NCBI GenBank assembly: GCA_028823885.1
Contig: JAPPFK010000114.1
Span: 1 to 40,367 of the forward strand
Source: Rhodospirillales bacterium
Lineage (GTDB): Bacteria; Pseudomonadota; Alphaproteobacteria; Rhodospirillales; UBA2165
Length of the DNA: 40,367 nt
Reading direction: 5' to 3'
In this document: one piece after another, positions 37,011 to 39,808 of the stretch
Layout: each line of letters starts with the position of its first letter
Position numbering within the stretch: the stretch's first letter is position 1
The notes under the pieces: generated by a model
The model's database searches: none
Seen by the model: the letters and a program-made list of their open reading frames with translations, nothing else
What the model was told of the DNA's origin: nothing
Position numbers and translations under genes: made by a program

Positions 37011-37547
37011 TTAGATGCCCTCGAGGGCGCGCTCCAGCTGCCGCCGGTTCAGGTAGTGCCGGCCGGGCGGGCCCGGATCGCCGCCGACCCGGAAGATCTC
37101 GTTGCCTTGCGGATCGAACAGATAGGCCGCCGGGATCGAGTGCACGCCGTCGAAGTCCTTGCCGATCTGCGGGGTGCCGTCGATCACATGGACCGGCGCC
37201 GGAATGGTCCGCCTGATCATCCGCCGTAGGCGCTTGTTGCCCTCGGCGTTCTCCTGCCAGTCCACCGCGATGATGGTGAGCTTGCCGGGTCCGTGTTTGC
37301 CGATGAATTCCGCGAGTTCCCCGAACTCGGTATGGCAGGGGGGTCACCAACTGGCGAAGAAGGTCACCAGGACCGGCTTGCCGTTGAACGCCTCGCGGGT
37401 GACGCCGTCACCCTTCAGGGGCGGCGCATCGATCAGCCGCTGTTTGATTTCGTCGGTGAGCGTAATCTTGTTTTGGGCCTCGGCCGGAACGCCCGCCAGC
37501 ACGAAGGCGGCGAGGATTAGCCCAAGGAATGACAAACGCTTAGTCAT
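37011..37547 (-). CDS. TlpA-like thioredoxin-fold protein with in-frame TGA at the first active-site Cys position; candidate selenoprotein (Sec68)
   Basis: Two listed ORFs (37344..37682 and 37011..37265) share one frame (37344-37011=333 nt). Read-through gives MTKRLSFLGLILAAFVLAGVPAEAQNKITLTDEIKQRLIDAPPLKGDGVTREAFNGKPVLVTFFASW-U-PPCHTEFGELAEFIGKHGPGKLTIIAVDWQENAEGNKRLRRMIRRTIPAPVHVIDGTPQIGKDFDGVHSIPAAYLFDPQGNEIFRVGGDPGPPGRHYLNRRQLERALEGI. TGA = 37346-37344. Confidence 0.8.
37313..37329 (-). promoter_or_regulatory. Candidate bacterial SECIS stem-loop downstream of the TGA
   Basis: mRNA 5'-UGA CCCCCCUGCCAUAC CGAGUUC GGG GAACUCG-3': perfect 7-bp stem, GGG apical loop starting at nt 22 after UGA. 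Confidence 0.65.
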
Positions 37548-37636
37548 GGTCGTATCAACGCGCATGGCGGGGATGTATTCCACCGCCCAAGCCCGGTCAA
37601 TCAACAAGAATGTGAGGTGGTCACGGCAATATGATT

Positions 37637-37835
37637 CGTCATGCCCCGGCCCACCGGACCGGCCTCGCCGACCGGAGGACAAGCTACCTCCGGGGTATCC
37701 ACATTCTCAATTTTTGAACCACAGAGACAGCGAGACGGTGAGGAGCACCGAGATCGAAACTCTCCTCTCAAGCTCTTAGTCTCTGTGTCTCTGTGGTGAA
37801 TGTCCTGAATGCCCCGCATAAAGCGGGGCATGACG
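37637..37835. repeat. Composite inverted-repeat intergenic element
   Basis: Outer 12-bp IR CGTCATGCCCCG (37637-37648) / CGGGGCATGACG (37824-37835); inner 11-bp IR ACCACAGAGAC (37718-37728) / GTCTCTGTGGT (37787-37797); hairpin ATGCCCCGC-ATAAA-GCGGGGCAT (37809-37831). Confidence 0.7.
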
Positions 37836-39148: not shown

Positions 39149-39808
39149 CTACTCCGCCGCCTGCTGCTGGCGCTCAAGCCGGTCGGTGAGCCACGCCTCG
39201 ACGATGGGCTCCAGTTGCTCGTAGGGCTGCCAGCCGACGGTGAGGTAGGCGTAGCCGGTGCGGTCGTTGACCACCACGGTGGGGAAACCGGTGACGCCCA
39301 TGCGCTGGGCGAACTGGAAGTCGCGCATGGTCTCGGCCTTCATTTCATCGGAGTTGAAGAGCCGGGCGAACTTCTCCTTGTCGAGGCCGAACTCGGCCGC
39401 CAAGCCGATCAGTACGCCTTCTTGGGTAACGTCCCGGTTCTCGGCGTAGAAAGCGGTCTGCAGGCGGGTGAAGAACTCAAGCGCCGTGCCGTTGCCTTCC
39501 ATCATCCGCGTGGTGACGGCGGCGCGGCAGGCGGCCTCGGTGTTGTAGACGAAGTCGGTGCGTTCCAGGATGTCGAACTTGAATGGCTGGCCGGTGCGCT
39601 GGTTGATCTCCTCCCAGTGCTCGCGCAGGAAGTCGATGCGCTGCCGGTCCTGGGGCTCGCTCCAGTCGATATGCAGCCCGCCGGCGACGAACGTCACCGC
39701 GGCGCGGCCCCGGCACTGGTCCTCCAGCCTGGTCTTGGCAGGCGCGAACCCGTAGCACCACGAGCACATGGGATCGCCCACATAGATCAGTTCCCGATCG
39801 ACGGCCAT
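39149..39808 (-). CDS. DsbA family protein
   Basis: ELIYVGDPMCSWCYGFAPA (CSWC redox motif), MGVTGFPTVVVNDRTGY cis-Pro region. Confidence 0.88.
   Translation of the reverse strand: MAVDRELIYVGDPMCSWCYGFAPAKTRLEDQCRGRAAVTFVAGGLHIDWSEPQDRQRIDFLREHWEEINQRTGQPFKFDILERTDFVYNTEAACRAAVTTRMMEGNGTALEFFTRLQTAFYAENRDVTQEGVLIGLAAEFGLDKEKFARLFNSDEMKAETMRDFQFAQRMGVTGFPTVVVNDRTGYAYLTVGWQPYEQLEPIVEAWLTDRLERQQQAAE

Follow-up and report, generated by a model that had tools for sequence, protein, structure and literature searches.

It is an established general principle that selenocysteine (Sec) can take the attacking position in CxxC proteins of the thioredoxin fold. Reports of UxxC thiol-disulfide isomerase-like selenoproteins date from 2005, beginning with Sargasso Sea data (PMC1088965), and the Trx-like 1 group (COG0526, UxxC) comprised 321 sequences in 2008 (PMC2398784). 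A 2026 review lists UxxC and UGC types of cd02966, includes the thiol-disulfide isomerase-like selenoprotein and gives the name "TlpA disulfide reductase family" to a further cd02966 entry (PMC13188914). UxxC TlpA-like selenoproteins are thus catalogued, and their kind is known. We take cd02966 to be the TlpA-like family, which agrees with the naming used in the review.

The window analyzed here is a stretch of 40,367 nucleotides from a Rhodospirillales bacterium whose assembly comprises 3.63 Mb in 208 contigs and is 99% complete. On its minus strand lies a thioredoxin-like gene with a TGA codon in frame. Likened by published descriptions, this gene and its relatives share with the cd02966 UxxC and Trx-like 1 proteins the attacking Sec, a TlpA-like domain, the bacterial host and a hairpin after the UGA, but form a pair of putatively signal-peptide-bearing branches (WUPPC and WUxTC-type) from one alphaproteobacterial order. 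The UGC-containing TlpA-family selenoproteins and those of model NF041054 (WAxxUGC_long) also have a ResA-like domain and carry Sec close to their active site; their Sec position and motif are different, and the window protein reaches only 20 bits against the cut-off of 300. The Prx-like thiol:disulfide oxidoreductases (PF00578, UxxC/UxxU) share the UxxC motif, and PF00578 matches the window protein (P0001) with 40.9 bits, whereas its fold and profile ranking favor ResA/DsbE over peroxiredoxins. ResA, StoA, DsbE (CcmG) and TlpA provide the best structure matches and share with the window protein the predicted fold, a putative signal peptide, the W-x-x-x-C motif and the cis-Pro position. Unlike these proteins, the window protein has Sec in place of the first Cys and NCBIfam scores below cut-off, and its gene has no cytochrome c maturation neighbors. 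The window gene may be the first member of an exported selenoprotein subfamily that has yet to be described, with WUPPC and WUxTC branches that are both present in its genus. Such a subfamily would be characteristic of a single alphaproteobacterial family, escape current curated models and act as a dedicated periplasmic selenol reductase. We hold this joint proposal tentatively, with the balance tipped slightly against it.

An in-frame TGA at the attacking position of a UxxC motif

The window gene and its key residues are located as follows.

37011..37547, minus strand: coding sequence of a TlpA/ResA-like thiol:disulfide oxidoreductase, 178 residues plus a TAA stop, with a single in-frame TGA (Sec68), assigned from Pfam matches, alignment, model and structure matches
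37476..37547, minus strand: putative signal peptide spanning residues 1-24 (MTKRLSFLGLILAAFVLAGVPAEA), from visual inspection
37344..37346, minus strand: Sec codon TGA at the N-terminal (attacking) position of WUPPC, from translation and homologue alignment
37335..37337, minus strand: Cys71 (TGC), the resolving Cys of UxxC, which does not vary across the alignment
37131..37133, minus strand: Pro139 (SIPA), an invariant alignment column

The minus-strand letters around the codon are CTGGTGACCTTCTTCGCCAGTTGG TGA CCCCCCTGCCATACC. When TGA is read as U, the lone TGA becomes residue 68 in the context FFASW-U-PPCHTEF. The earlier note had placed this TGA exactly on the first Cys of WCPPC in an otherwise intact frame, and translation of the minus strand bears this out. 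It had also described a frame of 179 codons; the frame from 37547 to 37011 is indeed open, but 179 counts the stop, and the protein has 178 residues. An alternative start is possible at an in-frame ATG upstream, at 37565. Pro139 occupies what we take to be the cis-Pro position of the thioredoxin fold.

Without recoding, the frame falls into two open reading frames, one that stops at the TGA (37344-37682) and one with a GTG start (37011-37265), so that standard calling splits the gene into two broken pieces, as had been expected. No NCBIfam model covers the subfamily of the window gene by profile comparison, and annotation pipelines therefore probably split or truncate both this gene and a paralogue described below, which leaves an annotation gap in these uncultured bacteria. 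We consider it almost certain that this apparent internal stop specifies selenocysteine in the reactive site of the protein.

Conservation of the TGA codon and selenocysteine machinery

We searched 297 genomes of the order for homologues of the window gene. Two congeneric MAGs labelled Rhodospirillales, with 92% and 90% identity, carry TGA at the same codon and show none of the further inactivating mutations that would mark a decaying gene. In total, 21 homologous genes from 18 genomes have TGA at this site, with identities from 33% upwards, and the Cys homologues found in the same search have TGC or TGT instead. In the alignment, TGA always lies opposite the N-terminal Cys of CxxC, in every Cys homologue as the earlier note had anticipated, and neither the Sec/Cys column nor the second Cys varies. 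Since the TGA is conserved in the congeners and across the 21 genes, its occurrence in the window gene by chance is excluded. Downstream of the TGA, dN/dS is 0.15-0.33 among the three congeners and 0.06-0.33 in pairs from the second branch; purifying selection thus acts on what is translated beyond this codon.

A lone stop in one MAG contig could also come about through a nonsense mutation in a dying Cys thioredoxin or through a miscalled TGC in an intact one. A frameshift-split WCPPC copy of the window's branch does exist in another genome (G069 contig C29, L060:1190-1700, minus strand), where it is either a pseudogene or an assembly error. However, the same TGA recurs in separately assembled genomes, selection persists downstream of it, further lesions are absent and the codon is followed by a covarying hairpin. 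We give virtually no weight to a pseudogene or sequencing error, which is refuted by the conservation of the TGA.

The Sec forms fall into two branches. The one that includes the window gene has the motif WUPPC, and the other has WU[STMGVI][TASV]C; the window's genus carries both. In the tree, the Sec forms lie on one side of a branch that is modestly supported (87/62, recovered in 83% of bootstrap trees), and one Cys homologue from the same family sits just outside them. Among 385 sampled genomes of the class, no internal TGA was present in matches from outside the order, and relatives in viral contigs and plasmids are distant. This compact family with Sec and Cys versions could serve for studying Sec gain and loss.

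The earlier note had reasoned that Sec machinery must be encoded elsewhere in the genome. All of the genes sought were found, together with other selenoproteins.

C163:1537-2895: selA, 589 bits
C163:2934-4817: selB, directly downstream of selA, 468 bits
Contig C168 (L062:964-1905), plus strand: selD, 407 bits, itself read with Sec (U17, HGGGUGCK)
C174:1027-1118: tRNA-Sec, anticodon UCA, 78 bits
Contig C25 of the window genome, G000 (L056:1321-1848), minus strand: paralogous selenoprotein with WUMTC, 44% identity over the matched part
Contig C163 of the window genome (L002:132-1334), minus strand: PrdB/GrdB-related open reading frame adjoining selA, with an in-frame TGA in VUPMC

With selA, selB, selD and tRNA-Sec present, the Sec trait of this genome is complete. 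U17 of SelD (GGGUGCK) is a known Sec site of that protein. The WUMTC paralogue is also found in both congeners. The PrdB/GrdB-related frame scores 146 bits against a cut-off of 300 and is probably another selenoprotein rather than a classical D-proline reductase.

We compared the occurrence of selA with the form of the protein. A selA match above cut-off was found in 15 of the 18 genomes with a Sec form versus 2 of the 22 with Cys forms only (Fisher p = 2.5e-6, which is only a guide because related genomes are not independent). Among Sec-form genomes that are at least 90% complete, all eight have selA; the three Sec-form genomes in which selA was not found are only 57%, 78% and 88% complete.

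These data also bear on whether the UGA is decoded as something other than Sec, through general readthrough with Trp or Cys or through a genome-wide change of code. Some lineages do read UGA as another residue. Here, however, the genome encodes the entire Sec machinery, which occurs together with the Sec form, and the site always corresponds to the catalytic Cys. Moreover, the same gene terminates in TGA in two congeners (L027 and L028), and UGA thus also works as a normal stop. On these three grounds we reject an alternative code, which we consider highly improbable. Judged from sequence, we are highly confident that the window gene is a genuine selenoprotein, predicted to be exported and TlpA/ResA/DsbE-like, with Sec encoded by UGA at the attacking position of UxxC. 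What the computations show is the TGA codon and how it is conserved, a Sec machinery in the genome, a hairpin that covaries, purifying selection and the fold. The proposal of a UxxC thiol oxidoreductase selenoprotein made in the earlier note is likewise supported by the machinery, the alignment with Cys homologues, the hairpin and the tracking with selA.

A hairpin downstream of the TGA codon

Published rules for bacterial SECIS elements (bSECIS) require a loop of 3-9 nt with a G in its first two positions, at 16-37 nt from the UGA, and set an energy limit of -7.5 kcal/mol (PMC13188914). The window gene contains one candidate.

37313..37329, minus strand: putative bSECIS hairpin CGAGTTC-GGG-GAACTCG (or, read differently, a stem of 6 bp closing a CGGGG loop), located 20-21 nt past the UGA

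This hairpin fits the published geometry, and its core of -7.0 kcal/mol narrowly misses the energy limit. In each of the 21 Sec genes, a stem of 5-9 pairs whose loop contains G can form 20-21 nt past the UGA. Of the pair cells across the alignment, 95.7% hold standard pairs, versus 26-49% after the partner is displaced by one, two or three columns. Compensatory changes are seen in the pair formed by columns 18 and 34, which is GC in 8 cases, UA in 5, CG in 3 and AU in 1. One gene (L029) keeps a 7-bp stem despite altered bases, with a one-base shift. The mean stem of the Sec family is 7.6 bp, versus 3.5 bp in synonymous-codon shuffles, of which the maximum among 2000 was 4.4. The wobble positions under the stem are frozen (TTC in 21 of 21, CTC in all 20 Leu codons, GTG in 18 of 18 and CAA in 16 of 16), and the invariant Phe codons upstream of the hairpin vary between TTC and TTT. 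More than five pairs at this place were found in none of 15 Cys homologues. A bSECIS-like hairpin, for which the earlier note had proposed a search, thus covaries across the family.

These position-specific, family-wide tests took the place of single-sequence folding and of an unrestricted shuffle test. When the window gene is taken singly, its stem is equalled at that position by about 10% of synonymous shuffles (p about 0.10), 63% of shuffles fold equally well somewhere in the allowed range when position is unrestricted, and single-sequence folding after the TGA, including wider folds, gave no significant z-score. By itself, the hairpin in the window gene is therefore weak evidence for Sec. 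As a short putative bSECIS with visible covariation, this element could serve for studying bSECIS variation outside E. coli.

A Cys version from another genome (G162; WCPPC, L030:1498-1872, plus strand) still has a hairpin of 5 bp where the bSECIS would lie, which is possibly the relic of a change from Sec to Cys.

Fold, likely role and gene neighborhood

Read with Cys68, the window protein matches the Pfam families AhpC-TSA, Redoxin, Thioredoxin_8 and Thioredoxin above their cut-offs, with AhpC-TSA and Redoxin on top. Its AlphaFold model has a pLDDT of 87.6, with low values over residues 1-20, and the structures that match the model are DsbE of Chlorobium, ResA, StoA, DsbF and CcmG. The C-terminal thioredoxin fold that had been noted is thus recovered by Pfam, model and structure matches alike. 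Among NCBIfam profiles, dsbE, ResA, StoA and TlpA rank highest, all far below cut-off (best, dsbE with 49.5 bits versus 123). The window protein is predicted to have the thioredoxin fold of the TlpA/ResA/DsbE-like group; with this fold and sub-cut-off scores, it would thus work like this group but outside its named subfamilies. Its N-terminus resembles by eye a signal peptide ending in AEA-Q, and the N-termini of its homologues are also signal-like.

The window protein is most likely a periplasmic selenol-disulfide reductase. SelB with Sec-tRNA(Sec) would read the hairpin just past the UGA and insert Sec, and the signal peptide would direct secretion of the protein. In the periplasm, a membrane relay of the DsbD/CcdA type would keep the selenoprotein reduced. 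Acting by way of a Sec68-Cys71 selenenylsulfide (Se-S), the selenoprotein could then reduce disulfides or comparable bonds in envelope proteins. The genome encodes one DsbD_TM protein, on contig C105; in the likely role, envelope disulfides would be reduced via the selenenylsulfide and the enzyme recharged by this DsbD-type protein.

The selenoprotein might instead have an oxidative or isomerase-like role (DsbA/DsbG-like), or detoxify peroxides or selenium compounds. The sister branch with WUxTC/WUSTC rather than PP, the top Pfam matches and a FrnE/DsbA-like CSWC gene just beyond argG, though with no sign of a functional link, point in this direction. However, fold and NCBIfam ranking favor the reductive DsbE/ResA/TlpA group, of which WCPPC is the typical motif, and the TxxC/U motif of peroxiredoxins is absent. 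We thus regard a non-reductive role as unlikely, although it retains appreciable weight, and prefer disulfide reduction.

In the congeners, the selenoprotein gene is flanked by argG and an MFS gene. Its neighbors differ in other genera, and there is thus no conserved operon that points to a partner. The DsbA/FrnE-like gene with CSWC (window positions 39149-39808, minus strand) adjoins argG on its upstream side and is two genes away from that of the selenoprotein; it is also found in one congener (L065).
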